DNA from: Candidatus Zixiibacteriota bacterium
GTDB taxonomy: Bacteria > Zixibacteria > MSB-5A5 > GN15 > FEB-12
Assembly (NCBI GenBank): GCA_040752815.1
Contig: JBFMGC010000007.1
Span: 1 to 64,000, forward strand
DNA: 64,000 bases
Direction of reading: 5' to 3'
Shown here: piece by piece, positions 470-38,919 of the stretch
Layout of the letters: each line of letters opens with the position of its first letter
Position numbering within the stretch: position 1 is the stretch's first letter
The notes under the pieces: generated by a model
What the model saw: the letters and a program-made list of their open reading frames with translations, nothing else
Databases searched by the model: none
Told to the model about the DNA's origin: nothing
Translations under genes and position numbers: made by a program

Positions 470-1591
470 TCAGCCCTCGATCATCTCCACATTGGCGCGC
501 GGAATGATCGCCTCCTCGCCGCTTTCAAACCTAACCCCGAGTATTCTCGCTTTGGATTCCGATTCGAGTTTGTGCAGCGGCGAAGGCAGATCGACTACCA
601 TGCCGAGCCGTCCAAAATGAGGGTGGCGAATAACTCTGATAGGGGAACCAACCGACAGTCCCGCTACGTCCTGATCCACGGCGTCGGTGCGGATGGCTGC
701 CTTTGGTGTCGGTATGACAACCTCAGGCCGGATTACTCCGGCGCGAATCTGCGTGGCGCCGTTAATACAGGCCACCTCGCCCTCGTGGCGCCTGAGCAGT
801 TCAAACGTCTTTGCGGCCATGTTGATCTGGCCGAAGCCTTCGGTCACGACCAAAGTCGTCGCCGTATCTTCCGAACCAGTGATCGCGACTCCGATATCAT
901 AACCCAGGAAGTCGCGGAGATCTTTGTCATCGAACCCGCCAACCACAATTCCCCGCACGTTAAGTTGAATCGCCTTGCGCAGCGCCGCCGCGGTCACAAG
1001 TGAGCCGCCGACTATGACCTTGCCGGTCATTGAATCGTTTATCAGATCCTGGTCGAGGACGACAGTGGGGTCCGTTACGGCAACGTGGATGGGGCCGTTC
1101 TTCTCGCCCCCGATTCCGAAAATCCCCTGTACGAAACTGGCCATGCACTGGACCTCGACACCCTCTCTCGGATATACTTGCGTGATCTGTCCGTGCACGT
1201 ACGCTTTCACCTCGACCGGGCTGGGCAGGCCGCGTTGGAGCACCTGGCCGGTGATCGAGGAAATCGACTCTATGCTGCCGTCGATTGTGGCATGGCATGG
1301 GTTCTTGAAGATAAACAGTGTTTTCGAGAGCGCGATCAACTCGCCGCTCTTGATCGGATCGCCCACTTTCTTAAGCATCACCATCTCGATATCTTCCGGC
1401 GGGATGCCGAGCTTGTTGGCGACATTTATAGGCACCACATTGCCGGGTAGCTCGGTGCGGGCCACGACATCGTCGGGGCCGACTTTGTCGCCCACCTTGA
1501 CGAGCACGTCGCCCTTCAGCGGCAGGATGCGCTGTTTCTTTACCAGCAGTTCTTCTTTGACTTTGAGTCCGGGAGTATATGCGTGGCCCAT
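470..1591 (-). CDS. Barrel-sandwich (lipoyl/biotinyl-like) and KOW-like domain protein
   Basis: A 373-residue predicted cytoplasmic protein without signal peptide or membrane segment. Residues about 15-65 (LPLKGDVLVKVGDKVGPDDV) and about 75-135 look like two barrel-sandwich hybrid modules of the lipoyl/biotinyl/RnfC type, but no biotinylation or lipoylation lysine motif is evident. A glycine-rich middle part (GIFGIGGEKNG, about 165) and a C-terminal segment from about 310 (SVGSPIRVIRHPHFGRLG) that resembles a KOW/NusG-like small barrel follow. It is the last gene of a minus-strand set with the PsbP-like protein (15 bp upstream) and the MutL-type ATPase, and lies head-to-head with the triplicated membrane module, so a shared role is inferred. 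No specific function is recognised. Confidence 0.85.
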   Translation of the reverse strand: MGHAYTPGLKVKEELLVKKQRILPLKGDVLVKVGDKVGPDDVVARTELPGNVVPINVANKLGIPPEDIEMVMLKKVGDPIKSGELIALSKTLFIFKNPCHATIDGSIESISSITGQVLQRGLPSPVEVKAYVHGQITQVYPREGVEVQCMASFVQGIFGIGGEKNGPIHVAVTDPTVVLDQDLINDSMTGKVIVGGSLVTAAALRKAIQLNVRGIVVGGFDDKDLRDFLGYDIGVAITGSEDTATTLVVTEGFGQINMAAKTFELLRRHEGEVACINGATQIRAGVIRPEVVIPTPKAAIRTDAVDQDVAGLSVGSPIRVIRHPHFGRLGMVVDLPSPLHKLESESKARILGVRFESGEEAIIPRANVEMIEG

Positions 1592-1606
1592 GAATGACTC
1601 TCTGAT

Positions 1607-2371
1607 TTACAATTTTCGCTGTGCCTTCTTTTTTCTCAGGCGGACGATCACTATCACAAAGATTATGAACAGCGGGCCGCCGAAATACAGCCCGTAGTTG
1701 CGCGCCTTCTTTCCGTCGGTTCCGATATCAGCTACTTTGACTGGTTCGGCCGATACCGCGGGTGGTGTCTCACCTATCGACAATGACATTACCATATGAC
1801 GCAAAATCGGGAGGCCGCCCGCGTATTCCGCCGACGGCGCGTAGAAATAGAAATTGGCGATACCATGTTCGTAGAACTTCATCGCCAGGAGATTGGTCCG
1901 GGGGCCGGAGCGATCGCCCGGCACCTCCGACTCAATAGAGACACGTCCGCCCTCACGATCAAACACGATCGAGTCGCGGCAGGGAGCCGCCAGGAAGGCG
2001 TCCGGCGTGACCTCTTTGATCGGTCGCCGGAACTCCCTGGTCAGCGTGTTTACAACAGAATCGATCTGTTCCGGCAAGAGTTGCCCGACCGTGTCAACAG
2101 TAAGAATCAGATACAAACCCTGAAAGAGAGCGTAGGTTTTCGTTTCCGAAAAGACCGCCTCGAAATCGACCTCTTTCTCCGGGTCTCCTCGGGTCAGGTA
2201 AACCTCGGCAGTCGTGTAATCGACCTGGATCCAGGACTCCGGATAAACGAAATGGAATTTCCCGTTGTAACTGACAAACGTCCCCGCACCTGCCGGAACA
2301 TACGACCCCACAACTGCGAGGATGGTGCAGCCTATCACCAGAACAATGCGAACCGGATTCATCGTGAACAT
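1607..2371 (-). CDS. Exported, C-terminally membrane-anchored PsbP-like protein
   Basis: A 254-residue protein with an N-terminal signal sequence (about residues 5-30, ending near PAGAG). The extracytoplasmic domain of about 180 residues opens with FHFVYPESW, the kind of strand motif seen in PsbP/Mog1-like folds. A C-terminal transmembrane helix (about 228-246) is followed by RLRKKKAQRKL, a strongly positive cytoplasmic tail. The start may be Met1 or Met4; neither has a clear ribosome site. It sits 10 bp after the MutL-type ATPase gene and 15 bp before the barrel-sandwich protein. Function unknown; its topology (sensor outside, short basic tail inside) suggests a membrane partner of the neighbours, which is inference. 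Confidence 0.8.
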   Translation of the reverse strand: MFTMNPVRIVLVIGCTILAVVGSYVPAGAGTFVSYNGKFHFVYPESWIQVDYTTAEVYLTRGDPEKEVDFEAVFSETKTYALFQGLYLILTVDTVGQLLPEQIDSVVNTLTREFRRPIKEVTPDAFLAAPCRDSIVFDREGGRVSIESEVPGDRSGPRTNLLAMKFYEHGIANFYFYAPSAEYAGGLPILRHMVMSLSIGETPPAVSAEPVKVADIGTDGKKARNYGLYFGGPLFIIFVIVIVRLRKKKAQRKL

Positions 2372-2381
2372 TTCTCAAATC

Positions 2382-4244
2382 CTAAAGTGACTTTTCCAGC
2401 GCTTCTGCCGGGTATATATCCAGGTCGGTCATCCACTTCTTGAGGAAGGCGACCCGGTCCTTATCCGCCAGCGACGAAAGATCGAACGGTCGCCCTCTGC
2501 CGTCCAGAATGATCCCCACCACGCCGCCGTGGAGGTCGCGCTCGACCTTGTTGCCCGGACCGGCGCCAATATCGAACCCACGCTCCGGCTCCAGCACGGC
2601 GCGCGCAGTTTGCGGAAGGCCGTTCTCCTGAAGGCCCAGCCTGAACAGCTTCATCTCGAGATAATCGAGCGTGCCGCTGACCGCGCCGTCGGGCAGGGCG
2701 ATGTGATATTTCAGGATCGGGCCCGGTTTCTTGGCGACACCCACCGGCGCCACACAAGTACCCAGATGGATAAGGCAGTCCTTTTCGAAAACTTCGGTGG
2801 CGGCGCGCGGCTGAACTTCCGTGAGCACGCCCAGCTGCGGCATCATGAAGATCGAATCGACCGCCAGCCGCGTAACGCCCTCGGGCAGGAACGCGTCAAT
2901 CAGCATCAGTCCGGCCTGCTGGCGGCGCGGCGCGTGCGAGAGCACCCCCCCCGACCCGATCAGCATGTCGAGAGTCATCATGTTCACGATAGTCTGTCCG
3001 GATGTGGACTGCTCAAACGCATCGGCGATCGTACGCTGCTGCTGCACGCCTTTCAGAACGGTCGCGAAATTCTTGTGCTGGATGAACGCCAGCCGCAGGG
3101 CCTCTTTGGCAATCGCCTGCTCGAAAATCAGCTCCTGCATCGATTGTGGGATGGTCGTGGGGCGGATCATCTTGTTCTTGACCCGGTTGCGCAGGTCGCG
3201 CTCGTTCATTTCGAACGGCACCCAACGCATGACCATCGGCAAAGTCGCCTCCGCGAACACATTTGAAATCGAGTAGGACATGCCCAGGTTGGCGGAGACT
3301 GTCCGGTTGAAAATGCCGGTCTTGCCGTCGGGGCGGAAAACCGAAAAGACGTCGGTCGTGGCGCCGCCAATATCGACTCCGACCGCCTCGATATTGTACT
3401 GGTCGGCTATCGTCTTGATAATCAGCCCGACCGCGCCGGGTGTGGGCATGATAGGGGCATCAGTCCACTCCATCAATTTGCGGTAGCCCGGAGCTTGCGC
3501 CATAACATGCTCCATGAAGAGCTCATGGATTTCCTCGCGAGCGGGGCCGAGGTTTTCCGTTTCCAGTACCGGACGCAGATTCGCAACTGTACGAAGGTCC
3601 ACCTTGCTTGAGAGCGTCTTTTGTACCGCATCGGTGGCGTCTCTATTGCCTGCATAAATGATAGGCAGCTTATAACCGGTACCAAGACGCGGTCTCGGAT
3701 CGGCGGCGGAGACCAGCTCTGCAATCTCAACCACATGGGTGGTTGTGCCACCGTCGATCCCGCCCGAAAGCAGGATCATATCCGGGCGCAAGTGCCGGAT
3801 GCGTTCGATCTGCTGGTGGGGGAGACGCTTGTCGTTGGAGGCGATTACGTCCATGACAATCGCGCCCGCGCCAAGCGCCGCACGCTCGGCCGATTCGGCG
3901 GTCATGGACCGCACCACTCCGGCGACCATCATTTGAAGTCCGCCGCCGGCCGACGATGTCGATATGTAGACGTCGGTGCCGACCCCACCCTGGGCCGGAG
4001 AAATAAACCGGTTGTTCTCGTCCAGCAGTTTCCGGCCGGACAACTCCTCGAGCTCGGCCACCGCATTCAGAACGCCCATAGTGACATCCTCGAAAGGGGC
4101 CTCGACCGTCGTGGGCGCTTCCCCCCGCGAAAGGAGGCGGTACTCGCCGTTCACATATTCTATCAGAATCGCCTTGGTGGTGGTGGAGCCGCAGTCGGTG
4201 GCGACGATTACCTTGATATCATCGGGGTTTTCGAATCTGGCCAT
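2382..4244 (-). CDS. MutL/GlmL-type ASKHA-fold ATPase
   Basis: A 620-residue protein of the glutamate mutase MutL (GlmL) family. The N-terminal phosphate-binding loop of the actin/Hsp70/hexokinase fold is seen at about 12-25 (VIVATDCGSTTTKAILIE), and a second family motif (LLSGGIDGGTTTH) lies at about 158-170. VGVDIGGATTDVFS at about 288-301 marks the second phosphate loop. Characterised relatives lie beside the B12-dependent mutase genes glmS/glmE and are thought to act as reactivation or assembly factors, but no mutase subunit occurs in this window. It is instead first in a minus-strand operon and diverges from the triplicated membrane module. I infer a chaperone- or assembly-type ATPase for that module; the GlmL name should not be read as proof of glutamate metabolism. 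Confidence 0.88.
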   Translation of the reverse strand: MARFENPDDIKVIVATDCGSTTTKAILIEYVNGEYRLLSRGEAPTTVEAPFEDVTMGVLNAVAELEELSGRKLLDENNRFISPAQGGVGTDVYISTSSAGGGLQMMVAGVVRSMTAESAERAALGAGAIVMDVIASNDKRLPHQQIERIRHLRPDMILLSGGIDGGTTTHVVEIAELVSAADPRPRLGTGYKLPIIYAGNRDATDAVQKTLSSKVDLRTVANLRPVLETENLGPAREEIHELFMEHVMAQAPGYRKLMEWTDAPIMPTPGAVGLIIKTIADQYNIEAVGVDIGGATTDVFSVFRPDGKTGIFNRTVSANLGMSYSISNVFAEATLPMVMRWVPFEMNERDLRNRVKNKMIRPTTIPQSMQELIFEQAIAKEALRLAFIQHKNFATVLKGVQQQRTIADAFEQSTSGQTIVNMMTLDMLIGSGGVLSHAPRRQQAGLMLIDAFLPEGVTRLAVDSIFMMPQLGVLTEVQPRAATEVFEKDCLIHLGTCVAPVGVAKKPGPILKYHIALPDGAVSGTLDYLEMKLFRLGLQENGLPQTARAVLEPERGFDIGAGPGNKVERDLHGGVVGIILDGRGRPFDLSSLADKDRVAFLKKWMTDLDIYPAEALEKSL

Positions 4245-4634
4245 CTTCTACTCAAAAACTCTTTCCGCATTTCGGCGTTTCCAGTGCGACATCTCCCATG
4301 CGGGTAGCATTGTTGCCCAGGCCACTGGAGGGCGCCTGTCAAGTCAAGTCGACTACTATACAACCCGGTCTCCTGGTTGTAAAGGTCGATTTTGGTTTCG
4401 GAATCGCACTGGCGCCCAGTTACTCAACTGGCTCACCGTTCCTTTTCGCTTGACTTGGCTTATTGGCCCGGATAGATTGCCGCCTTTGAAGTTCCGCAGC
4501 CTTGCCCAGACCCTCCCGAACGAACCGGGCCGCCGCGGCTGCAAGGCAGTGTTTGACAAGCGCGGGGTTCGTTCGTCGTGCTTCTGTAAGCCCGGCACCA
4601 AAAAACTTAGCAGACCGTGGGCTGAAGAAAGAGA
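4245..4634. other. Divergent intergenic region between MutL-type operon and module operon
   Basis: About 390 bp separate the two divergent operons and must hold their promoters. TTGACA boxes occur on the plus strand at 4553-4558 and on the minus strand in the direct repeat around 4338-4350, but neither has a convincing -10 element at normal spacing. No ORF with coding character, tRNA or clear terminator was found. Confidence 0.4.
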
Positions 4635-5903
4635 TTGGATTTGCCAGGATTGACCGACCGTTACCGACCGCTCCTGACCCCGCCGGTAGCTCTCTTTCTC
4701 TTTGCCCTGGCCATATCGCCCGCAACTTTCGCCCAAAATCCGGAACCGAATCCGTCTGACTCCGCTCTGATCTCGGCGGTCGGCTCCTCGCTCATGACCG
4801 GGCCGCGTCCTGCCGTGATCCTGTCCGGCGGCGACCGCGACAACGATGACGGAGGCGAAATCCGCCTCACCTGGCAGCTTTCGCCCGATGACATCAAAGG
4901 CGGCATCGTTACCGGCTACAAAGTGCTCAAGGCCTCGGAGCCGGGCGGCCCGTTTGTAGAGGTCGGCGATATGGCGCCCGGCACAAGTCAGCTCGAGGGT
5001 GGGGAAACCGACGACGGTCGGCCGTATTACTTCAAAGTGATCACGCTGTCGATGGTTCCGTCGGGCAACGGTGCTCTGGTCGAGGTTTCGAGCGAATCAG
5101 AGATCTACGGTCCGATCGTCTCATCGGCGCAATGGTTCCACATGGGGCGGCTGAACGTCTTTGTCGGTAGTGTCCTGGTCGTCTTTCTCATTCTCTTTAT
5201 GATCCGGAAGGCCAGATCCGGCCGCGAGCTCTACGTCCGCAAGATCGCCGGTCTGGATGCGGTCGACGAGGCCATCGGGCGCGCCACCGAGATGGGCAAG
5301 AAAGTCATCTATGTACCGGGGATCGACGACATGGACAACGTGATGACCATCGCGTCGATGATCATCCTCGGCTATGTTGCCGAGATGACCGCTACATATG
5401 ATACCTATCTCGAGGTGCCGGTATCCAAGTCCATGGTGATGGTTACGGCAAAAGAAGTGGTCAAGGAGGCCTATACCAAAGTCGGGCGCGCCGACTCGTA
5501 CAAGATGGACCAGGTGCATTATCTCACCGATGATCAATTTGGGTATGCGGCGGCAATCGACGGTATCGTGGTGCGTGAAAAGCCCGCGACCATGTTCTAC
5601 ATCGGTTCGTTCTTCGCTGAATCTCTCATTCTTGCTGAAATTGGAAACGCGGCCGGAGCTATTCAGATTGCCGGTACGGCTCAGCCGACCCAGTTGCCGT
5701 TCTTCGTGACCGCGTGTGACTATACGCTGCTCGGCGAGGAGATGTTCGCGGCCTCGGCGTATCTCTCGAAAGAGCCCAGACTGCTCGGTTCGCTTAAGGG
5801 ACAGGATTACGTTAAGGCGGTAATCCTCGTCCTCGTGGTCATCGGCATTATACTCGAAACTTTCGGTGTCTGGGACTTCTCCCGACTCTTCACGGTGGTA
5901 TAG
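4635..5903 (+). CDS. Module 1 protein A: exported FN3-like plus DUF6754-like membrane protein
   Basis: A 422-residue membrane protein and first gene of the twelve-gene operon. A signal sequence (about 12-34) precedes a fibronectin-III-like domain at about 60-155 (GEIRLTWQLSPDD, VTGYKVLKA). A transmembrane helix at about 173-191 is followed by a basic inside-facing stretch and a conserved cytoplasmic domain at about 199-390 (VRKIAGLDAVDEAIGRATEM; AESLILAE; GAIQIAGT; GEEMFAASAYLS), then a C-terminal helix at about 394-413. The cytoplasmic domain resembles the family catalogued as DUF6754 (assignment from memory). The start codon is probably TTG at 4635, with TTG at 4641 as an alternative. The next gene follows after 2 bp. 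Homologues at 8213 and 11928 share the same architecture. Function unknown. Confidence 0.88.
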   Translation: MDLPGLTDRYRPLLTPPVALFLFALAISPATFAQNPEPNPSDSALISAVGSSLMTGPRPAVILSGGDRDNDDGGEIRLTWQLSPDDIKGGIVTGYKVLKASEPGGPFVEVGDMAPGTSQLEGGETDDGRPYYFKVITLSMVPSGNGALVEVSSESEIYGPIVSSAQWFHMGRLNVFVGSVLVVFLILFMIRKARSGRELYVRKIAGLDAVDEAIGRATEMGKKVIYVPGIDDMDNVMTIASMIILGYVAEMTATYDTYLEVPVSKSMVMVTAKEVVKEAYTKVGRADSYKMDQVHYLTDDQFGYAAAIDGIVVREKPATMFYIGSFFAESLILAEIGNAAGAIQIAGTAQPTQLPFFVTACDYTLLGEEMFAASAYLSKEPRLLGSLKGQDYVKAVILVLVVIGIILETFGVWDFSRLFTVV

Positions 5904-5905
5904 CC

Positions 5906-6556
5906 ATGCGCAGAACTGTCCCACTGTTGATTACCGGAATTGTAGGCGTCGTGTTTGTCGTCTCGTATTTCATTCCCCATAAGCCGTTCAGTAATCTCAA
6001 TGACTGGTTTTCTGACTGGTTTTCGATCGTGGCCGCCTGTGCGATTGTGCTAGGCTCGCTTAATCTGATTCTGATTTCTTCGCAGAAAGTCGCCCGTCGC
6101 AAGGAAGACTGGGGCTACGCAGTAGTAATAATCGTTTGCTTTCTTATAACGGTGATCGCCGGGATCGCCGGCGGGCGCGGCTACCAGAACACCGGTACGG
6201 CGTTCGAGTGGTTGTACCGCTACCTGTACGTTTCGTTGTCTTCTACGATGTATGCGATTCTGGCGTTTTATGTAGCGTCGGCGTCGTATCGCGCCTTCCG
6301 GGCGCGGAATATCGAGGCCACCATGCTGCTGGTGGCGGCTTTTCTCGTCATGTTGGGGCGAGTGCCGATCGGCGATGTCATTACCCAGTTTCTGCCCGAG
6401 GGCGCCCGCATATCCGACTTTCAGCAGTGGATCATGGACTTTCCGCAGACCGCCGGACAGCGTGCTATCATGATCGGCATCGCGCTCGGCCTGACCTCGA
6501 CCTCGCTGCGGGTGATTCTCGGTATCGAGCGTTCGCATCTCGGGGGAGGCGACTGA
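5906..6556 (+). CDS. Module 1 protein B: six-TM membrane protein
   Basis: A 216-residue integral membrane protein with about six hydrophobic helices (near 5-24, 36-55, 69-90, 115-135, 143-160 and 190-208). The family signature shared with the other two copies is STMYAILAFYVASASYRAFR at about 112-131 followed by AR(N)xxATxLLxAA, and a C-terminal AGQRAIMIGIALGL/ILGIER segment. It starts 2 bp after gene A and ends 3 bp before gene C, so translation is probably coupled. No catalytic motif is visible; a structural or channel-like subunit of the complex is inferred only from operon position. I do not recognise a named family. Confidence 0.87.
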   Translation: MRRTVPLLITGIVGVVFVVSYFIPHKPFSNLNDWFSDWFSIVAACAIVLGSLNLILISSQKVARRKEDWGYAVVIIVCFLITVIAGIAGGRGYQNTGTAFEWLYRYLYVSLSSTMYAILAFYVASASYRAFRARNIEATMLLVAAFLVMLGRVPIGDVITQFLPEGARISDFQQWIMDFPQTAGQRAIMIGIALGLTSTSLRVILGIERSHLGGGD

Positions 6557-6559
6557 GCC

Positions 6560-7585
6560 ATGTCGCGTCGGACCATTGAAATCGCGCTTGTGGTGGTCGG
6601 TCTCGCATTGTGCACGCTGGCTTACCTGGGGAAGAAGAACGTGCAGGGTTGGCACAGCGGTTTTGAGTTCTCCCCAACTACATCCCAGATCGTGATAGGA
6701 TTAATCGGCCTGTCCCTGGTCTGGATCTTAGTTCGCACACTTCAGGACAAGGCGGTCGGCCGGCGAACGGTGTTTTTGTACGTGGGAATCGCTATTGCGC
6801 TTCCTCTATTCATGTCGATCGATCAGGATATCGTTATCTCGGAAAACACCCGCCATGTATATGAATCGCTCGGGGAACTGCCGCCCGGTTCTAAAGTGCT
6901 GGTATCATTCGATTACGATCCGGCCTCCTCGCCGGAGCTCCAGCCGATGGCCGAGGCGTTTCTGGCCGAGTGCTTCCGGCGCGATCTGAAAGTCATTATG
7001 GTCGCGCTTTGGGCCCCGGGCGCAATTCAGGCCAATATCGCTCTTGACACCGTTCGGGCGCGATTGGGATTGGACACTACCGAGCTCGTCTACGGCGAGG
7101 ACTACTGCAATCTCGGATACCAGGCGGGACGGGAGTTTGTCATCCAGCGTATGGGCACCAGTTTCGAGGCCATGTTCGGCACCGATGTGCGTGGCACGCC
7201 GTATCGACAGATTCCGCTGGTCAGAAACGTCAGGAACTTCTCTGACATCAACTATGCCTTCAATATTTCCGCCGGTTTCCCCGGCACGGTGGAATGGGTA
7301 CAGGTGGCAGTTAGCCGGTTCGGTTTGAAACTGGGCGCGGGCAACACGGCAGTACAGGCGCCACAAGTGTATCCCTATTTGCGGGCAGGACAACTGCAGG
7401 GGCTCCTGGCCGGTATCAACGGGGCGGCGGAATTCGAGAAGTTGATTGGCCTCAAGGCAGTCGCCACGACATACATGCTGGCTCAGACGTTTGCTCACTT
7501 GATTGTGATCGCATTCATCATAATCGGCAACATTGCCTATTTCCGAGGTGAGCGCGAAACGAAACTCCGCGGGAGGACACAGTAG
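6560..7585 (+). CDS. Module 1 protein C: membrane-anchored extracytoplasmic [FL]D[YF]DP domain
   Basis: A 341-residue protein with three N-terminal helices (about 5-23, 41-60, 70-86), a soluble domain of about 200 residues and one C-terminal helix (about 308-330). The soluble domain opens with SKVLVSFDYDPASSPELQPM (about 111-130), in which the D-[YF]-D-P and x-PM residues recur in the other copies; near the end all copies share YPYxxxGQLxGLxGG and GAAEYE-like motifs. The alternation of strands and helices (KVLVSF, LKVIMVALW) looks alpha/beta. By the positive-inside rule (MSRR start, DKAVGRR after TM2, RGERETKLRGR tail) the soluble domain is outside the cytoplasm. Function unknown. Confidence 0.86.
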   Translation: MSRRTIEIALVVVGLALCTLAYLGKKNVQGWHSGFEFSPTTSQIVIGLIGLSLVWILVRTLQDKAVGRRTVFLYVGIAIALPLFMSIDQDIVISENTRHVYESLGELPPGSKVLVSFDYDPASSPELQPMAEAFLAECFRRDLKVIMVALWAPGAIQANIALDTVRARLGLDTTELVYGEDYCNLGYQAGREFVIQRMGTSFEAMFGTDVRGTPYRQIPLVRNVRNFSDINYAFNISAGFPGTVEWVQVAVSRFGLKLGAGNTAVQAPQVYPYLRAGQLQGLLAGINGAAEFEKLIGLKAVATTYMLAQTFAHLIVIAFIIIGNIAYFRGERETKLRGRTQ

Positions 7586-7589
7586 GCGT

Positions 7590-8213
7590 ATGGATCACCT
7601 CGGACTCTGGCTGGCGGGATTGCTGACACTAGGCATCTACTCGTTTCTCTACCGTGACAATCCCTGGTACAAAGTCAGCGAGGCGATATTCGTGGGCGTG
7701 TCAGCCGGCTACTGGGTGGTGTACGAGTACTGGCAGAATTTCGTGGGCAAATTCTGGGATCAGAAAGGGGATCAGCCCTGGCTCTGGATCGGCGCGGCGC
7801 TGGGCCTGATGATGCTCATGCGCCTGATACCAAAAATCGGATGGATCTCGCGCTGGCCGCTTTCGTTTATCATCGGCGCAACATCCGGTCTGTGGCTAAT
7901 GCTCTACCTGACGACCAATTGTATCGCTCAGGTCGAGGCGACGATCTTCCCCCTTTTCGGCGCCGACTTTGACGCCTCCGCAATCGCCATCTTCAGCAAC
8001 TTTGTGCTGGTCGCCGGGACGATCTGCGGTGTCGTCTACTTCTTCTTTTCCAAAGCGCACACTGGCGCTTTCGGCGCGACCGCGCGGGTGGGCATCTGGA
8101 CGATTATGATTACGTTCGGGGCGATGTTCGCGCTGACCATCATGAACCGGATGTCGCTTCTGATCGGGCGCACGTCGTTCATCTTCGGCGAATGGCTGGG
8201 GTTACTCAGGTAA
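7590..8213 (+). CDS. Module 1 protein D: six-TM membrane protein with YRDNPWYK motif
   Basis: A 207-residue membrane protein. I start it at ATG 7590, just after the end of gene C, rather than at an upstream ATG inside C; GGGAGGAC lies upstream. Hydrophobic helices are seen near 3-20, 32-50, 66-82, 89-107, 122-146 and 155-180. Signatures shared with the other D proteins are YRDNPWYKVSEAIFVG at about 21-36, LMRLIPKIGWISRWPL at about 78-93, and FFFSKAHTGAFG at about 146-157. The stop codon overlaps the start of the next module's A gene (TAATG). No enzyme motif is recognised. Confidence 0.86.
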   Translation: MDHLGLWLAGLLTLGIYSFLYRDNPWYKVSEAIFVGVSAGYWVVYEYWQNFVGKFWDQKGDQPWLWIGAALGLMMLMRLIPKIGWISRWPLSFIIGATSGLWLMLYLTTNCIAQVEATIFPLFGADFDASAIAIFSNFVLVAGTICGVVYFFFSKAHTGAFGATARVGIWTIMITFGAMFALTIMNRMSLLIGRTSFIFGEWLGLLR

Positions 8214-9478
8214 TGATCGCCCGCCGCTCGACACCCGATTCGGGGACCTGCGGCTCACTCAGGATATCCACATTCTGTCTATTCCTGCTGCTCGGAGTGG
8301 CTGCACAATTGTCGGCCCAGGAGGGGGCTGTGGATACAACGACCAGATCGAATCCGCAGATCCCGCCCGCACCGGTGACTTCGCTTATCGCAGAGGATTT
8401 CAACTACGACGATGGCGAGAACATCATGCTCACCTGGGTGCCGTCGATTGATGACCAGCCCGCGATCGGTGGTGTAACCGGTTACCAGGTCTTCCAGATC
8501 AGGAATGATGGCGTTCCGGAGAAGCTGGCGGATCTCCTGCCCGGAGCCAACAGCTTCCGCGCACAGGACCTCCAAATTGACAGTACCTACCGGTTCTATG
8601 TTGTGGCATTGGCTGACGGGGTGTCGTCGGAGTCAATTCGCACCGCGCCGATACGCACTGAGCGGGAGTGGATCGACTGGAACCTGTGGAACCTGATGCT
8701 GATCACGCTGATAATCGGCGGCGCCATAATCGTTTTCATCGAGACCGCCAAGCGGGGGAAGAAGCTGTTTGTGCGGAAGATCGCCGGCCTGGAGGCGGTT
8801 GATGAGGCCATCGGCCGCGCCACCGAAATGGGTCGGCCGATTTTGTATATTCCCGGCATTCAGGACATGGACGACGTTCAGACGCTGGCGGCGCTGACCA
8901 TCCTGGGACGGGTGGCCGAACATGTCGCTACCTATGACATAAAAATCCGAATGCCGGTTTCGCGTTCTCTGGTGATGACCGCAGCACGCGAAACTATCAA
9001 AGCCAGCTACCAAGCGGCCGGTCGACCCGACGCCTACAGCGAGGATATGGTGTCTTACGTGACCGACGAGCAATTCGGTTATGTGGCGGCGGTCAGCGGC
9101 ATTATGGTGCGCGAGAAACCGGCTACCGTGTTTCTGCTTGGCGCGTTCATGGCGGAGTCACTGATACTTGCTGAAACCGGAAACTCGGTGGGGGCGATTC
9201 AAATCGCGGGTACGGCGCGCCCGGCGCAATTGCCTTTCTTTGTTGCCGCCTGCGATTTCACTTTGATTGGAGAAGAGCTGTTCGCCGCTTCCGCCTATCT
9301 CTCGGGCGAGCCCAGAGCGCTGGGTTCGCTCAAAGGACAAGACGTGGGCAAAGCGATAGCTATGGTTGCGGTGGTGCTTGGCATGGCGGCCGTAACTCTT
9401 TACAGCCTGACCGAGGGCGGCGCATTCAAATCGGTCGCCGACTGGCTGCATACTATGTTCACCATCGCATCGGACTAG
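8213..9478 (+). CDS. Module 2 protein A: exported FN3-like plus DUF6754-like membrane protein
   Basis: A 421-residue homologue of the product at 4635. The start ATG overlaps the preceding stop as TAATG; an in-frame ATG at 8192 would run further into gene D. A signal sequence (about 18-35, ending SAQ) is followed by an FN3-like domain (ENIMLTWVPSIDD, GVTGYQVFQ), one helix (LMLITLIIGGAIIVFIE) and the cytoplasmic domain beginning VRKIAGLEAVDEAIGRATEM. By eye the cytoplasmic domain is well over half identical to the module 1 copy, while the FN3-like part is much more diverged. A C-terminal helix ends the protein. The next gene begins 3 bp later. Function unknown. Confidence 0.87.
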   Translation: MIARRSTPDSGTCGSLRISTFCLFLLLGVAAQLSAQEGAVDTTTRSNPQIPPAPVTSLIAEDFNYDDGENIMLTWVPSIDDQPAIGGVTGYQVFQIRNDGVPEKLADLLPGANSFRAQDLQIDSTYRFYVVALADGVSSESIRTAPIRTEREWIDWNLWNLMLITLIIGGAIIVFIETAKRGKKLFVRKIAGLEAVDEAIGRATEMGRPILYIPGIQDMDDVQTLAALTILGRVAEHVATYDIKIRMPVSRSLVMTAARETIKASYQAAGRPDAYSEDMVSYVTDEQFGYVAAVSGIMVREKPATVFLLGAFMAESLILAETGNSVGAIQIAGTARPAQLPFFVAACDFTLIGEELFAASAYLSGEPRALGSLKGQDVGKAIAMVAVVLGMAAVTLYSLTEGGAFKSVADWLHTMFTIASD

Positions 9479-9481
9479 ACG

Positions 9482-10159
9482 ATGAGACGCGAGATCCCGC
9501 TTGGCATAACGATATTCGTGGGCTTCCTGGCGATAGTCTCGTTCTTTAGTCCGCCGCTTGAAGCGCTGGGCGAGGACTTTACGCTCTTTTTCGACATAAT
9601 TGCAGTGTTTGCGTTTTTCCTTGGTGGCGGCAACCTGGTGCGCATCCATGCCAACAAGCTGATCAAGAAGAAGCCTGATTGGATCTATTCGATTGTGGCG
9701 TTGCTGGGCTTCTTCGTCATGCTGGCCGCGGGGCTGTTTAAGATTGGCAATCCGGGGGATATATCCACGTCGGTTACCGCCCCCGGTTCGCTCTTCGCTA
9801 TGCTTTACTACAATCTCAACCTGCCGCTCGGCTCCACCATGTATGCACTGCTGGCGTTCTATGTGGCCTCGGCGTCATATAGGGCGTTCCGCGCGAAGAA
9901 TCGCGAGGCGACCGTCCTGCTTCTAGCCGCGTTTGTAATTCTCCTTGGGAGTACCCCGTTCGGGACGGTGCTTACTTCATGGATTCCCGACTCGTTCGAT
10001 TTCCTGGAAATCCCTAACCTGGCCGTCTGGATCATGAGTTCCCCCAATCTCGCCGGGCAGCGGGCGATCCTGATCGGTATCGGCCTTGGTGTGGTGTCAA
10101 TGTCACTGCGGCTGATTCTCGGTATTGAGCGTACCTACCTGGGAGAGGATCGTGGGTAA
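9482..10159 (+). CDS. Module 2 protein B: six-TM membrane protein
   Basis: A 225-residue homologue of the product at 5906, with about six hydrophobic helices. The family signature appears as GSTMYALLAFYVASASYRAF and GQRAILIGIGLGVVS, closing with LILGIERTYLGE. The final eight bases overlap the GTG start of gene C, and the gene begins 3 bp after gene A, so the four genes are expressed as a unit. No catalytic motif is visible. Confidence 0.87.
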   Translation: MRREIPLGITIFVGFLAIVSFFSPPLEALGEDFTLFFDIIAVFAFFLGGGNLVRIHANKLIKKKPDWIYSIVALLGFFVMLAAGLFKIGNPGDISTSVTAPGSLFAMLYYNLNLPLGSTMYALLAFYVASASYRAFRAKNREATVLLLAAFVILLGSTPFGTVLTSWIPDSFDFLEIPNLAVWIMSSPNLAGQRAILIGIGLGVVSMSLRLILGIERTYLGEDRG

Positions 10160-11069
10160 TATCGGGGTCATAATCGTCTTATTGCTGATCGGCGGAGGAC
10201 TGGTCTGGCTTTTCGTGCGGGCGCTGCGGGGCAAGGAAGTGGACCGCAGGGTGGTTTTCGCGTTCATCCTTATCTCGGTGGCCGCGCCGCTGCTGCTCAC
10301 GATCACGTTTGAGATGAAGCCGACCCACATCGTGCAGGAGTTGTATGACAAGATCGACAATCTGCCTGCGGGGTCGAGGATATTGTTGTCGTTTGATTTC
10401 GATCCGCCGATGGCACCGGAAGTGCAGCCGATGGCCGACGTGGTTTCGCGGCACGTTCTGACCAGAGGACACAAGGCAGTTTTCATGACCCTGTGGGCCA
10501 CCGGCCAGGCGCAGTTCAACATTACGCTTGAAGATGTCATTCGCAGGCAGTTCCCCAACGCTGTATACGGTGAGCATTACGTGGATCTCGGCTACAAGGC
10601 CGGAAATGAGGGTGTGCTGAATGTCATCCGCACTGACTTCAAAAAGATGTTTCCGACTGATGTCAACACCGTCCCCTGGGACAGCCTGCCCATACTCGAG
10701 GGCATACGATCGTGCTCTGACTTCGACTTGATTATCTCTCTGGGAGGAGGCAAACCCGGAGTTAAAGAGTGGGTGCTTTTTGTCGGCGACCCGACCGGCG
10801 TGCCTGTCGCCGGCGGCGTAGCGGCCGTCGTGGCGCCCATGCTCTACCCGTACTTTCCGAGCCAGATGTGCGGACTCCTGGGCGGAATCAAAGGCGCGGC
10901 CGAGTACGAGAATTACTTTCGCGATAATCACCCTGACCATACCGATATGGAAACACCGGCGATGATCATGATGGGGCCGCAGACTGTCGCCCACGTGGTT
11001 ATCCTGGCGTTTATCGTCATCGGCAACGTGCTGTTCTTCGTCAATCGCCGCAAAGAGGTGAAGCGATGA
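10152..11069 (+). CDS. Module 2 protein C: membrane-anchored extracytoplasmic [FL]D[YF]DP domain
   Basis: A 305-residue homologue of the product at 6560. I choose the GTG at 10152, preceded by GGGAGAGGATC, over an ATG at 10125 that lies further inside gene B. This copy has two N-terminal helices instead of three, separated by RALRGKEVDRR, then the soluble domain (LLSFDFDPPMAPEVQPM) and a C-terminal helix ending in NRRKEVKR. Despite the different helix number the charge pattern again places the soluble domain outside. YPYFPSQMCGLLGGIKGAAE near residue 240 matches the other copies. Its stop overlaps the start of gene D (ATGA). Confidence 0.86.
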   Translation: MGNIGVIIVLLLIGGGLVWLFVRALRGKEVDRRVVFAFILISVAAPLLLTITFEMKPTHIVQELYDKIDNLPAGSRILLSFDFDPPMAPEVQPMADVVSRHVLTRGHKAVFMTLWATGQAQFNITLEDVIRRQFPNAVYGEHYVDLGYKAGNEGVLNVIRTDFKKMFPTDVNTVPWDSLPILEGIRSCSDFDLIISLGGGKPGVKEWVLFVGDPTGVPVAGGVAAVVAPMLYPYFPSQMCGLLGGIKGAAEYENYFRDNHPDHTDMETPAMIMMGPQTVAHVVILAFIVIGNVLFFVNRRKEVKR

Positions 11070-11902
11070 GCCGGCTGGCGGTGGTTGTGTTCGTGATTGT
11101 CTGCGCCGCTTTTGCACTGAGCTGGGTGCTTCGAGCGGGCGCCACCGAGGGCGACCACGCCGTGCGCGACGCATTCCTGGTAACGCTGTCAGCCTTTATG
11201 ACGCTGGCGATCATGTCGTTTATGTACCGCGACAATCCCTACTACAAATTCGCGGAGCACCTGTTTGTCGGAATTTCCGCGGCCTACTGGATGTGTGTCG
11301 GGTTTTGGTCTACAATTGTCGGCAACCTGGTGCCGCGCATTTCGGAGGGCCTGTCTGATTTCTTCAAGGTGCCGTATTCGGGAGGCGGGCTCGATTTCGA
11401 TCTGTTCTTCCTGCCTTACCGAGTCTTCTACCTGATACCGATTATCCTGGGCATACTCCTTCTGATGCGCCTCATTCCGAAAACGGGCTGGATTTCGCGC
11501 TGGCCGCTGGCGTTTATCGTCGGCACATTCGCGGGGCTCAATCTAATTCGCTACCTTCAGTCCGACTTCATTATTCAGATCTCCGCAACGTTCGTGCCGC
11601 TGTTTGTCGAGTGGCAGGGCTTCGGAGATTTCGTCAGTCGGCTGTCGTTGGCGGCGGACGGACAGTTCATTGCCATGCTCAGCAATCTCGTGATTTTTCT
11701 TGGCGTTTTCTGTGGCCTGGTGTATTTCTTCTTTTCCAAGGAACATACCGGCTGGTTCGGAGGCGCGTCGCGGCTCGGCATCTGGATTCTGATGATCACC
11801 TTCGGCGCATCCTTCGGCTATACCGTAATGGGACGAATTTCACTTCTGGTCGGGCGGCTGACGTTCCTGTTTCGTGACTGGTTAGGAATCATAAGTTCAT
11901 AA
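11066..11902 (+). CDS. Module 2 protein D: membrane protein with YRDNPYYK motif
   Basis: A 278-residue homologue of the product at 7590, with an extra N-terminal helix (LAVVVFVIVCAAFALSWV) before the shared core. Core motifs are YRDNPYYKFAEHLFVG, LMRLIPKTGWISRWPL, FFFSKEHTGWFGG and FGASFGYTVMGRISLLVGR. Compared with module 1 there is also a longer loop after the second core helix. It overlaps gene C by 4 bp. Function unknown; likely an integral subunit of the inferred complex. Confidence 0.86.
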   Translation: MSRLAVVVFVIVCAAFALSWVLRAGATEGDHAVRDAFLVTLSAFMTLAIMSFMYRDNPYYKFAEHLFVGISAAYWMCVGFWSTIVGNLVPRISEGLSDFFKVPYSGGGLDFDLFFLPYRVFYLIPIILGILLLMRLIPKTGWISRWPLAFIVGTFAGLNLIRYLQSDFIIQISATFVPLFVEWQGFGDFVSRLSLAADGQFIAMLSNLVIFLGVFCGLVYFFFSKEHTGWFGGASRLGIWILMITFGASFGYTVMGRISLLVGRLTFLFRDWLGIISS

Positions 11903-11927
11903 TAGTTCATTGGTGAAAGGTCGCCAT

Positions 11928-13487
11928 GTGAGACACAAACTGAAACTTGCTGTCGTCCTGATGCTGGGCATCAGTGGTGCAGCGGCAGCGCAGGGCGATA
12001 CGGTTACGCCGGATACTTCCGCGGCCGCGGTGTCGATCTCGCCGCCGGGGCCGGTTTCGAACCTCCGCGCTGCGGACGCTAAGAACGATCACGGCCACGC
12101 CATATCGTTGACCTGGGACAAGTCGCCCGATGATGGCGCCGGGCGGAACTCCGTCATAGCCTATGAGATATTCCGCTGGTTTCCCCACCAGATGAACGAG
12201 GCCGACTCGCTTCGTCGGGAGCTATCCACGGCTCGAGAGGCTATCAGGGCTTTCCGCTCCGACCTGCCGCGTGCGGAGCACGCCCTTATCGAGTTGAAGG
12301 AAGACCAGACCAGGTTGAGGACGATCCGCTTCAGTGTAGCTCGCCCCGATGATCCGACATTCCAGTTGACAGTCGATTTCGCCATGCGCGCCCTTGAGGA
12401 CACGATTGCTTACATGATCGAGCATGGCCCGGCTTTCAAGCGCAGCATCAAGCCCCTCCAGCGAGAGCTCGAGCAGGTGCTGGACCAGCTTCCCCAGGCG
12501 CACGCGCAGTACCCGGAAGGCGGGGAGTGGCGGTCGCTCGGCAAGGCGATAGCGGGAAGTGTCTCCTATGACAACACCGGCTCCAAGGAGGCAACTCAGT
12601 CGGATTTCTTTCCGGACCACACCGACCTGTACTACCGGGTGGAGGCGGTTACCGCCGACGAAACCATCAGGTCGGTAGCCGTCACAGCCGGTCCGGTTCA
12701 GAGCCATGGCCAGTGGTTTCACACCGGCAAGATCCCGGTGTTCGGATTCATCATGGTGTTCTTTGTTTTGACCGTTGTCTTCGTGCACTTTGCCAGGCGG
12801 GGAGCGGCGCTCTATGTCCGGCCTCTGTCCGGGATTGAAGCCGTGGACGACGCCATCGGCCGCGCCACGGAGATGGGCCGCCCGATTCTGTATGTCCTCG
12901 GTCTGGGCACCGCGACCGAGGTTTCGACAATAGCTTCGTTCTCCGTCCTGGGCCGCGTGGCCAAGCGGGTGGCTGAGTACCAGACGCCGATTATCGTGCC
13001 GTGCTACGACGCGATCGTTATGGCAGTAGCCCAGGAAGTGGTCAAGTCGTCGTATCTCGACGCCGGTCGCCCCGATGACTACAAAGAAGACTCGGTCTTC
13101 TTCGTAACCAATTATCAGTTTGCCTACGTTGCGGCGGTCAACGGTATCATGCTTCGCGAACGCCCGGCCACCAACGTCTATATGGGCAAGTTCTTCGCCG
13201 AGTCTCTGATACTCGCCGAAACCGGCACGCTGGCCGGTTCCATTCAGATCGCAGGCACTGACGAAACCAACCAGATTCCGTTCTTCATCGTATCATGCGA
13301 CTTTACGCTGATCGGCGAAGAACTCTACGCGGCGTCGGCGTATCTCAGCCGCGAACCGATTCTGCTCGGTTCACTCAAGGCCCAGGACTGGGCCAAGCTG
13401 GCGGTGATGGTGATTGCCCTGATTGGCATGATTTGCACCACCCTGGGCTATCCGGAATTCGCGCAACTCTTCCACGTGGCAGGGTAG
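11928..13487 (+). CDS. Module 3 protein A: FN3-like domain with helical insertion plus DUF6754-like domain
   Basis: A 519-residue homologue of the products at 4635 and 8213, about 100 residues longer. I start it at GTG 11928 (AAAGG seven bases upstream), giving a clean signal peptide that ends AAAAQ; TTG 11910 and GTG 11913 are alternatives. The FN3-like domain (AISLTWDKSPDD, VIAYEIFRW) is interrupted at about 86-199 by a long, charged, probably coiled-coil helical insertion (DSLRRELSTAREAIRAF) absent from modules 1 and 2. One helix then leads to the conserved cytoplasmic domain (GIEAVDDAIGRATEMGRPIL; AESLILAETG; GEELYAASAYLS) and a C-terminal helix. The insertion would lie outside the cell membrane. 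Function unknown. Confidence 0.87.
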   Translation: MRHKLKLAVVLMLGISGAAAAQGDTVTPDTSAAAVSISPPGPVSNLRAADAKNDHGHAISLTWDKSPDDGAGRNSVIAYEIFRWFPHQMNEADSLRRELSTAREAIRAFRSDLPRAEHALIELKEDQTRLRTIRFSVARPDDPTFQLTVDFAMRALEDTIAYMIEHGPAFKRSIKPLQRELEQVLDQLPQAHAQYPEGGEWRSLGKAIAGSVSYDNTGSKEATQSDFFPDHTDLYYRVEAVTADETIRSVAVTAGPVQSHGQWFHTGKIPVFGFIMVFFVLTVVFVHFARRGAALYVRPLSGIEAVDDAIGRATEMGRPILYVLGLGTATEVSTIASFSVLGRVAKRVAEYQTPIIVPCYDAIVMAVAQEVVKSSYLDAGRPDDYKEDSVFFVTNYQFAYVAAVNGIMLRERPATNVYMGKFFAESLILAETGTLAGSIQIAGTDETNQIPFFIVSCDFTLIGEELYAASAYLSREPILLGSLKAQDWAKLAVMVIALIGMICTTLGYPEFAQLFHVAG

Positions 13488-13499
13488 GAGGTAACAAAG

Positions 13500-14315
13500 A
13501 TGAAACAACAGATGCCGCGACTTATCGTACTGGTGTTCGGCGCATTCCTGCTCTTTCAGTTCTTCGTTCCCCACGAATCCTCGGAGCGCGCCTACGAGTT
13601 CCTGCTCGACTGGATTCTCATCATCGGCGTTTTCGCCCTCGCCGTAGGAATATGGTCGCTCTTCCACGTGCATGTCGACAAGATCAGAACCCGCAAGGTC
13701 GGCTGGAAATACTCCTATGTCACTCTGGTCGGCTTTGTCAGCATGATCATGTTCGGCTTGACGGCTCAGAACGGCCAGGAGTGGGGCTGGTTCTTCCCGT
13801 TTCTGGTGTCGGTAATTCTGACGGTCCTGATGGTGGTGCAGGCTCTGTCTTCAAAAGGGCGCGCTCCGACCTATCTGGGCCTGGCCGGACTATTCACGCT
13901 GGTCGCAATTCTGATCGCCAACTTTGATAACGATTGGAGCTTCTATTTCCAGACCGCCGTGCCGCTGCGGGCATACCTGTTTCGAAGTACATTCGATAAT
14001 GTGCTGGTCTCGCTGCACGCTACCATGTTCTCGCTGCTTGCGTTCTTTATAGCCTCGGCGGCCTATCGCGCGTTCCGGGCGCGCAACGTGATGGCCACGC
14101 TGCTTTTGCTGGCGGCGTTGATTGTCATGTCGCGCTTTAATCCGTACCTGGCGCCTGTTTTCGGCGAGTACGTGGCCAAGCTGTCCAACTGGCTGATGAA
14201 TGTCCCCAACATGGCCGCCCAGCGGGCGATCATAATGGGAGTCGGACTGGGAATGGTGGCGACCGCGCTCAAAGTGATTCTTGGCATCGAACGCAACTAT
14301 ATGGGCAGAGGGTAG
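13500..14315 (+). CDS. Module 3 protein B: enlarged multi-TM membrane protein
   Basis: A 271-residue homologue of the products at 5906 and 9482, about 50 residues longer because of extra hydrophobic segments near 100-145 (FLVSVILTVLMVVQALSS; FTLVAILIANF). The family signatures are retained (ATMFSLLAFFIASAAYRAFR; AQRAIIMGVGLGMVATALK; ILGIERNYMG). GGAGG lies about eight bases upstream of the ATG. With the insertion in its A partner, this suggests that module 3 is specialised. No enzyme motif is seen. Confidence 0.87.
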   Translation: MKQQMPRLIVLVFGAFLLFQFFVPHESSERAYEFLLDWILIIGVFALAVGIWSLFHVHVDKIRTRKVGWKYSYVTLVGFVSMIMFGLTAQNGQEWGWFFPFLVSVILTVLMVVQALSSKGRAPTYLGLAGLFTLVAILIANFDNDWSFYFQTAVPLRAYLFRSTFDNVLVSLHATMFSLLAFFIASAAYRAFRARNVMATLLLLAALIVMSRFNPYLAPVFGEYVAKLSNWLMNVPNMAAQRAIIMGVGLGMVATALKVILGIERNYMGRG

Positions 14316-14326
14316 GGAGATCAATC

Positions 14327-15214
14327 ATGAACATATTTGATCGTCTGATGTTGATCGACCGCCGCTGGGTCTTCCTCTTCCTGGTAATCGTCTCGGTATT
14401 TGCCTACGTGGCGGATTTCCAGGTGCCCATCATGGTAGAGCCGGAAGTGCGCAATATCTACAGGTTCATTGATACGCTGCCCATAGGTTCGGTGGTCTTT
14501 CTTCCCCTGGATTATGATCCCGGCTCCATGGCCGAGCTGCATCCGATGACCTTCGCTATTGTAGAGCAATGCTGGCGCAAGGAGCTCAAGGTGCTGATTA
14601 CGGCGCTGTCCCAGAACGGTCCGGGGATGGCCGACGAAGCCCTGCGTAAGCTCGTTGACTCCATGAAAGTGCCGAGGACCTACCACGGCATAACCTACCC
14701 GGCTCGCGAAATCGTCAACGGCGTAGATTACGTTTTTCTCGGATACAAGCCCTATCCGGCGATGGTGATACTCGGCATGGGACAGAACTTCCGGCTGCCG
14801 TTCCCGCTCGATTATTATGGTACGCCGCTGGATTCGCTACCGATGATGCGCGGGCTTTTCAATTATGATGATATTGCCTGCGCCATCAATATTTCAGGCA
14901 CCAACGCTACGGACTTCTGGATTTCGTACGGCCAGGGGCGCTACGGTTTTCCGCTGGCGATCGGCGTAACCGGGGTATCCACCGCACAGTACTACCCCTA
15001 CTACGGTTCCGGACAGCTTTTCGGAATCATGGGCGGAATGCTCGGAGCGGCGCAATATGAAGAGCTGGCCGACAATGCCGGCAATGCTAAAGGGGCCATG
15101 CGGGTGCAACTATCCGCGCACCTGGTGATAATCGCCTTTGTCATCATGGGCAATATCGGCTTTTTCGCCACTATGCGAAAACGCAAACGCGAAAAGATAG
15201 AAGGAAGGAGGTAG
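14327..15214 (+). CDS. Module 3 protein C: membrane-anchored extracytoplasmic [FL]D[YF]DP domain
   Basis: A 295-residue homologue of the products at 6560 and 10152. It has only one N-terminal helix (WVFLFLVIVSVFAYVADF), then the soluble domain with VVFLPLDYDPGSMAELHPM and, late, YPYYGSGQLFGIMGGMLGAA, and a C-terminal helix followed by the very basic MRKRKREKIEGRR. An odd number of N-terminal helices with an inside N-terminus again puts the soluble domain outside. GGGAGA precedes the ATG by about 6 bases. The next gene starts 4 bp after the stop. Confidence 0.86.
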   Translation: MNIFDRLMLIDRRWVFLFLVIVSVFAYVADFQVPIMVEPEVRNIYRFIDTLPIGSVVFLPLDYDPGSMAELHPMTFAIVEQCWRKELKVLITALSQNGPGMADEALRKLVDSMKVPRTYHGITYPAREIVNGVDYVFLGYKPYPAMVILGMGQNFRLPFPLDYYGTPLDSLPMMRGLFNYDDIACAINISGTNATDFWISYGQGRYGFPLAIGVTGVSTAQYYPYYGSGQLFGIMGGMLGAAQYEELADNAGNAKGAMRVQLSAHLVIIAFVIMGNIGFFATMRKRKREKIEGRR

Positions 15215-15218
15215 CGTC

Positions 15219-16055
15219 ATGGATTTCACGACCTTTCTATGGACCACATTCGGGGCATTCCTGACGCTCTGCATTTTCTCGTTCCTTTACAAAGACAACC
15301 CCTTCTACAAGTTTGCCGAGCACTTATTCGTCGGGCTTTCAGCCGGCTATTTCGCCATGATCCTCTGGCACAACGGGCTGATTCCCAAGCTGATGTTCGA
15401 GCGTCTGGATGATGGTAACTGGTATTTCCTCTGGGTGGACTCCTCCAAGTGGTGGTATCTGGTTCCGGCGCTGCTGGGGATCCTGATGTGGACCCGCTTC
15501 TCCAAAAAATACCAGTGGGTGTCGCGCTGGCCGCTGGCCATGTACATCGGCATCGGCGCCGGTACCGCAATCCCCGCTGAGATGCGTGCCAGAGTCAATG
15601 AACAGCTTTCGGCGATGATGCGCGAAATCAACTGGTCGCATTTCTTCGGGACGGACGGTGTCAATCTTCTGGATACCGCCTCGGGGTTGTCCCAGTTGAT
15701 TGTATTTGTCGGGGCGCTCTGCGCGCTAATCTACTTCTTCTTCTCGAAAGCGCACACCGGCGTGATCGGCGGCATGGCCAAGTTCGGAATCTGGATTCTA
15801 ATGATAGGTTTTGGCGCGTCGTTCGGCTTCACGGTCATGGCGCGAATATCGCTGTTCATTAACCGAATGCAGTTTCTCGATCAGCAGTGGATCACCACGG
15901 CGCACAACACCGCGCAGACCCCCAACCCCAATTATCATTGGGGCTACCCGGCGCTGTTCTATTCCCTGTTGGTACTGGCGCTGGCGTACATCCTGTGGGA
16001 ACTCATCTCGTTCCTGCGGCGCCGCGCGGGATCGGAGACTAAACAGGCCATGTAG
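15219..16055 (+). CDS. Module 3 protein D: membrane protein with YKDNPFYK motif
   Basis: A 278-residue homologue of the products at 7590 and 11066 and the last gene of the operon. Core motifs are YKDNPFYKFAEHLFVGLSAGY, WVSRWPLAMYIG, FFFSKAHTGVIGG and FGASFGFTVMARISLFI. It carries an additional C-terminal helix (ALFYSLLVLALAYILWELIS) and a basic tail not present in D1 or D2. A strong ribosome site (GGAAGGAGG) lies upstream. A terminator-like structure follows at 16083. Confidence 0.86.
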   Translation: MDFTTFLWTTFGAFLTLCIFSFLYKDNPFYKFAEHLFVGLSAGYFAMILWHNGLIPKLMFERLDDGNWYFLWVDSSKWWYLVPALLGILMWTRFSKKYQWVSRWPLAMYIGIGAGTAIPAEMRARVNEQLSAMMREINWSHFFGTDGVNLLDTASGLSQLIVFVGALCALIYFFFSKAHTGVIGGMAKFGIWILMIGFGASFGFTVMARISLFINRMQFLDQQWITTAHNTAQTPNPNYHWGYPALFYSLLVLALAYILWELISFLRRRAGSETKQAM

Positions 16056-16614: not shown

Positions 16615-16962
16615 ATGGCTCGGACTAATGCCCAAGCCCCAGCCGGAAACACCAGGGAAGTTGCCGAGAAGAAGGAGGATCATGACAGGGCGAGAGCCAA
16701 ACTGTCAACCGCGGAAGCCCGCCGCGAGTACCAGCGCCGTTACTACCAGATGCACAAGGAGAAGGCTAAGGAGTACCAGCGCCAGTACAACCTCACCCAC
16801 AAGAAGAAGGCCCGGGTGGGGCGCGGAAAATCCAACATGTTGGCGTCGCGCGAGGTAGTCCGGTCGACGTTCAACACGGCCGACATTATGCACTCGCCGG
16901 TCGAGAAGACACTTAAAATTCTCGAGAAGATTATTCGCGGTGAGCGTATGTTTACCATGTAG
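16615..16962 (+). CDS. Small basic repeat protein
   Basis: A 115-residue, highly charged protein with no signal peptide or membrane segment. The middle holds two near copies of a Tyr/Gln/Lys-rich unit (REYQRRYYQMHKEKA at about 38-52 and KEYQRQYNLTHKKKA at about 53-67), likely helical and nucleic-acid binding by composition. The C-terminal third (SPVEKTLKILEKIIRGERM) could form an amphipathic helix. GTGAGGTGG precedes the ATG. It has its own promoter candidate and a strong terminator at 16986, so it is probably monocistronic and possibly abundant. I do not recognise a family. Confidence 0.75.
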   Translation: MARTNAQAPAGNTREVAEKKEDHDRARAKLSTAEARREYQRRYYQMHKEKAKEYQRQYNLTHKKKARVGRGKSNMLASREVVRSTFNTADIMHSPVEKTLKILEKIIRGERMFTM

Positions 16963-38730: not shown

Positions 38731-38919
38731 GGGACGCTTGTAGGAATTGACGGATTTACTACCCAAGCCTTACTGCCCATAGGTCCCACAAGAAGCTCTT
38801 GGCCGCTGGAATTAAGACAGAGTCTTCTGCATGAGGTCCGCTGGCTTTTTGGGATTGCCGTACCGTCCCGATTCGTGGGGGATCGGTTTGCCGGTTCGCA
38901 ATCGCACCTTGGAGGAAAG

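Follow-up and report, generated by a model that had tools for sequence, protein, structure and literature searches.

A four-gene membrane module, anciently triplicated in Zixibacteria, and its conserved partners: a candidate ATP-driven inner-membrane system

In a 64,000-nucleotide stretch of DNA from a Candidatus Zixiibacteriota bacterium (contig JBFMGC010000007.1, positions 1 to 64,000; hereafter the window), twelve forward-strand open reading frames (ORFs) at 4635-16055 form three modules of four genes, designated A, B, C and D, in constant order and with spacings of 2-12 bp or short overlaps. We show herein that a divergent operon at 470-4244, containing the genes U3 and U1, is part of the same system as A-D. 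The best explanation, to which we assign a probability of roughly 40%, is that the array encodes, in three ancient versions, the membrane portion of a conserved system of several proteins, which would be an ATP-driven inner-membrane machine with a shared motor. The system is new as a whole, and two of its components, A and U3, belong to catalogued families. It may, rather tentatively, represent an undescribed inner-membrane machine that combines a GlmL-type ASKHA motor (not ABC, AAA+ or GTPase), eight families, and one cytosolic motor set with several membrane modules, three of them in invariant tandem order.

The original prediction, made from the letters of the window, described the twelve genes as a tight operon of three A-B-C-D copies, and blastp established their homology gene by gene. 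Copies 1 and 2 share 51% identity in A (1e-117), 48% in B (2e-63), 38% in C (2e-65) and 41% in D (7e-59), and the third copies match the others with E values of 1e-28 to 1e-93; no significant cross-similarity was found between the four families. A concatenated tree built from 140 modules places copies 1, 2 and 3 in three clades with a support of 1.0 each, the copy-3 clade also containing two solo modules from elsewhere in the window's genome (L086 and L087) and an extra module of locus L040. The four single-gene trees likewise separate the copies, with 0 misplaced among 25 three-module Zixibacteria-type loci. Such clean clades in every gene tree indicate that triplication of the four genes, as one block, preceded the divergence of these lineages and that no mixing followed. 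That the modules are simple recent duplicates with a redundant function, as their tandem arrangement might suggest, is therefore highly improbable: the copies are only about 29-52% identical, they form three phylum-wide clades in a fixed order, and the trees contradict recent duplication. The triplication is one lineage's elaboration, as most genomes of several other phyla hold a single A-D set.

The A proteins (A1, 4635-5903; A2, 8192-9478; A3, 11910-13487) match DUF6754 (PF20539) over the full domain with 381-403 bits, above the Pfam cut-off of 27 bits (E values of 1.6e-118, 5.6e-121 and 3.2e-114, respectively), and profile and fold searches of the PDB with A matched essentially FN3 domains alone. 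Their earlier description as FN3/DUF6754-like stands. A1 comprises a signal peptide, an FN3-like region, a transmembrane (TM) helix, DUF6754 and a further TM helix; A2 (AlphaFold2 pLDDT 84.8) has an fn3 match of 19.2 bits, which is sub-threshold in Pfam, and A3 has a long, helix-rich stretch inserted into its FN3 region. According to the positive-inside rule, the FN3 region that follows the signal peptide would lie outside, and DUF6754, between the two TM helices, inside. The family name carries no function, and the family covers A alone, not B, C, D, U1, U3, E or F (the last two being small proteins introduced below).

B (B1, 5906-6556; B2, 9482-10159; B3, 13500-14315) is a membrane protein with about six predicted TM helices. 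C contains an FDYDP motif in C1 (6560-7585), FDFDP in C2 (10125-11069) and LDYDP in C3 (14327-15214), preceded by three, two and one N-terminal TM helices, respectively. C1 was modelled by AlphaFold2 as a confident fold (mean pLDDT 92.7), with an alpha/beta domain that is predicted to be non-cytoplasmic and is followed by one C-terminal TM helix, a topology (TM helices, outside domain, TM helix) to which the positive-inside rule also points. D (D1, 7590-8213; D2, 11066-11902; D3, 15219-16055) is a multi-TM protein with an FSKEHxG stretch, and D3 has an additional C-terminal TM helix. For D1, a TTG at 7533 is listed as the first start, and the ATG at 7590 is likelier. The signatures that the original prediction attributed to each copy are kept across genomes, both in the three clades and in the median number of predicted TM helices in C (4, 3 and 2 for copies 1, 2 and 3; simple hydropathy, 22 loci). 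One of them needed correction: D1 and D2 read YRDNPWYK and YRDNPYYK, whereas D3 reads YKDNPFYK, so that the motif is Y[RK]DNPxYK and not YRDNPxYK.

B, C and D have no Pfam family above cut-off, and those that were scanned have no NCBIfam match above cut-off. Profile searches of the PDB with B, C, D, E, F, U1 and U3 gave no credible match, and a PDB fold search with C returned best hits with TM-scores mostly of 0.2-0.3, about 0.3-0.4 at most, and root-mean-square deviations mostly >10, which were taken as noise. The AlphaFold2 models of DUF6754 and C hint at a comparable succession of six strands and helices; a profile comparison of the two, with and without secondary structure, gave nothing, and homology is not claimed. 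Comparisons of A with U1 and of C with U1 also gave nothing. As had been anticipated for the described families, no family, solved structure or paper was found that explains A-D.

The rest of the system emerged from gene order. Profile searches and neighbourhood mapping showed that A-D co-occur elsewhere, in a near-invariant order in >150 loci, and matched them to no known complex. A gene-order survey of 83 loci, comprising the window, two solo loci elsewhere in its genome and 80 loci of GTDB genomes, showed almost no departure from this order. Eight families recur in the system, F, E, U3, U1, A, B, C and D, and they are found together in at least six phyla. In phyla with a single A-D set, A is immediately preceded by U3 and U1, and a small protein, E, is encoded in front of U3 or of A; U3-U1-(E)-A-B-C-D forms one operon in loci from Planctomycetota, Acidobacteriota, Eisenbacteria, the Gemmatimonadota type and Neomarinimicrobiota. 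U3 and U1 are fused into one ORF in five loci (Neomarinimicrobiota-type), and C and D in one locus. A small membrane protein, F, often precedes E, and a same-strand F adjoins 47 of the 79 E genes; in the window's genome, the F-E pair is located on another contig (G000:C93:436-1463). In Zixibacteria, this pair often lies near genes named by eye as a LarE-like PP-loop ATPase, a TPR-type 600-aa protein, rplI and gyrB (L171-L184). The view of 4635-16055 as the whole system was accordingly too narrow, since it left out U3 and U1 at 470-4244 and the scattered E-F pair.

In the window, the partner genes are encoded on the reverse strand. U3 (2382-4244) is a 620-aa GlmL/MutL-type ASKHA protein, a presumed ATPase, which scores 425.6 bits against the Pfam MutL family (PF13941; cut-off 27 bits). 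Its two ASKHA phosphate motifs (DCGSTTTKA-type and GVDIGGATTD) are invariant, and the mean column identity across phyla is 68%. U1 (470-1591) is a soluble protein of 373 aa without TM helices, mostly present as a single copy per genome, with a barrel-sandwich-hybrid-like N-terminal part and KOW-like C-terminal stretches; its PDB matches, to RNA polymerase beta' and SPT5-KOW, are weak, and mean column identity among 20 homologues, across phyla, is 64%. An idea drawn from LplA/GcvP neighbours, that U1 is a lipoylated carrier, was rejected: GcvP neighbours occur in four loci, and the alignment contains no conserved lipoyl lysine motif. U2 (1607-2371; 254 aa), a weakly PsbP-like protein with a signal-type N-terminus and a C-terminal TM helix, was seen in no loci but those of the Zixibacteria type, where its gene separates U1 from U3. 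The divergent U3/A1 intergenic region (4245-4634) contains one outward sigma-70-like promoter match per strand (two found versus 0.1 expected, as consensus matches only).

PF20539 is present in every one of the 97 genomes from the window's phylum, in most cases in five copies, whereas U1 is found in 94 of them, mostly single, and E in 93, single. The window's own genome holds five A-D sets (three in tandem and the two solo modules). Outside this phylum, PF20539 was detected in 60 of 195 Planctomycetota (usually one copy), 45 of 47 genomes in the phylum of the Eisenbacteria locus, 56 of 100 Neomarinimicrobiota (including genomes of 0.8-1 Mb), all five genomes of the phylum to which the Gemmatimonadota-labelled locus L080 belongs, 3 of 149 Acidobacteriota and none of 14 control genomes. 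Among the 195 Planctomycetota, U1 occurs in 56; A and U1 are both present in 55 genomes and only one of them in 6 (Fisher P=1.9e-41, uncorrected for shared ancestry). In several Planctomycetota the two genes lie far apart, about 253 kb in genome G200 and about 530 kb in G176. Their co-occurrence even at such distances argues for a link that is more than operon adjacency. Readings of the system as a mobile element or an anti-phage defence were rejected for lack of matches: tblastn of A2 against 72,556 plasmid and 50,697 phage records found none, nor did PADLOC models with ten of the proteins at E 0.01. More broadly, the searches run here gave the system no defence, phage, plasmid, respiratory or solved-structure match.

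We infer complex formation, ATP use, a role in transport or assembly, and the substrate along the following lines. A, B, C and D would form a complex across the inner membrane, with B and D as its TM core, DUF6754 of A inside, and both the alpha/beta domain of C and FN3 of A on the outside. U3, presumably binding ATP through its ASKHA-type fold, would dock on the DUF6754 domains with U1 as an adaptor, and ATP binding or hydrolysis may then drive a conformational change across the membrane, by which the machine might transport, assemble or release an envelope or peptide-like substrate. The tandem modules of Zixibacteria would most likely form either one hetero-oligomer or three substrate variants, with one shared U3-U1 motor. 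A single motor set serving several A-D variants would explain the gene ratio of about 5:1 in the window's lineage. The fixed gene order, the shared operons, the U3-U1 and C-D fusions, the A-U1 co-occurrence, the invariant phosphate motifs of U3, the confident fold of C and the Opp-type transporter genes near some loci (see below) speak for this reading. The earlier idea that A-D act as one unit in three variants fits the fixed order, the joint triplication and the age of the variants; the number three does not hold for the genome, which has five sets.

Several observations weigh against such a machine. Relatives of U3 of known context, as their family names indicate, serve B12 enzymes and not membrane machines. 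Genes of lipid metabolism adjoin the system in places: 17 Neomarinimicrobiota loci have CdsA upstream, diacylglycerol kinase is a neighbour in eight loci (Neomarinimicrobiota), and PlsX, with FabH where scanned, in eight Planctomycetota loci. Moreover, transporters of the oligopeptide (Opp/Dpp) ATP-binding cassette (ABC) type, next to which the system is sometimes found, are not general companions: the window's genome, 100% complete and with five A-D sets, has no SBP_bac_5 match, whereas 11 of 14 control genomes have one, and most loci are without Opp neighbours.

The affiliation of U3 would also suit a membrane-bound enzyme or electron-transfer complex that a GlmL-like reactivating ATPase keeps active. 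U3 keeps both phosphate motifs of the GlmL/MutL accessory proteins of adenosylcobalamin-dependent glutamate and ornithine mutases (PF13941, NF040745, NF040744), and the N-terminal part of U1 weakly matches the RnfC_N barrel-sandwich domain of Rnf/Nqr-type complexes (18.3 bits). However, U3 is longer than GlmL/MutL, scores about half of the GlmL equivalog cut-off (236 versus 475 bits, NF040745), and has membrane proteins as its conserved partners; the RnfC_N match is below the Pfam cut-off of 25.6 bits, the components include no other Rnf/Nqr subunit family and no redox-cofactor family, and PDB relatives are lacking. We regard this enzyme reading as quite unlikely.

The lipid genes listed above could instead place the system in envelope lipid synthesis, sorting or transport. 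Each of these links is nearly limited to one phylum and may be inherited synteny, however, and no lipid-binding or transferase domain was detected in A-D, which makes this an unlikely role.

An accessory or regulator of Opp/Dpp importers is likewise an unlikely answer, even though 12 loci, spread over three phyla, have Opp-type genes around or beside the system. In four Neomarinimicrobiota loci (L154, L157, L159 and L163), the whole system is located between SBP_bac_5-OppB-OppC and an ABC ATPase gene, and in L156, L158 and L160 an OppD-like gene follows D, the order in L158 being SBP-OppB-OppC-U3-U1-E-A-B-C-D-OppD; the L154 equivalent of this SBP was verified by Pfam as SBP_bac_5. OppD/F adjoins A-D in L085, L095 and L105, and OppB does so in L098; clusters of the system with such transporter genes occur in several Neomarinimicrobiota, Planctomycetota and Gemmatimonadota-type loci. 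On the contrary side, the ATPase in the L154 group is of the DrrA type and not OppD, no component of the system is an ABC protein (A-D and U1-U3 have no ABC permease or ATPase Pfam family above cut-off), and the absence of SBP_bac_5 from the window's genome weakens an Opp partnership as a general answer. Altogether, neighbouring genes hint at peptide or envelope traffic and do not settle it. Other transport and peptidase genes also occur beside solo modules: in L087 (6678-9627, window's genome) an A-B-C-D set diverges from the genes of a sugar-type ABC importer, which comprise SBP_bac_1 and two permeases, and in Eisenbacteria TldD/PmbA metallopeptidase genes lie directly downstream (L103:12164-13228 and L135:12098-13624).

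The system occurs in each examined genome of the window's phylum, in almost every Eisenbacteria genome, and in roughly half of the Neomarinimicrobiota and a third of the Planctomycetota. This distribution, together with the high conservation of U3 and U1, suggests a basic cell function, one that model organisms would lack or solve differently. Some Planctomycetota have been cultured, and the presence of the system in that phylum should open its function to deletion tests. In the open-access literature that was searched, no paper with DUF6754, PF20539 or PF13941 was found, and broader searches gave none that was relevant.

The surroundings of the array contain several further features, and no known RNA family was detected in the window. 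A short tandem array (194-317; 2.3 copies of a 55-bp unit) is located between the window start and U1. Downstream of D3, 16615-16962 (+) encodes a small basic protein containing a tandemly repeated 45-bp unit (EYQRxYNLTHKKKAK); the protein is kept in 16 related loci between D3 and the pyruvate phosphate dikinase genes. The dikinase gene of the window, syntenic in many relatives, and an ADP-forming acyl-CoA synthetase-like gene then follow at 17092-22061 (+), immediately 3' of the array. Finally, a very large ORF at 38875-48234 (+), 3119 aa in length, contains PKD/Ig-like repeats, has a CHU_C-like C-terminus, and may specify a secreted surface protein.

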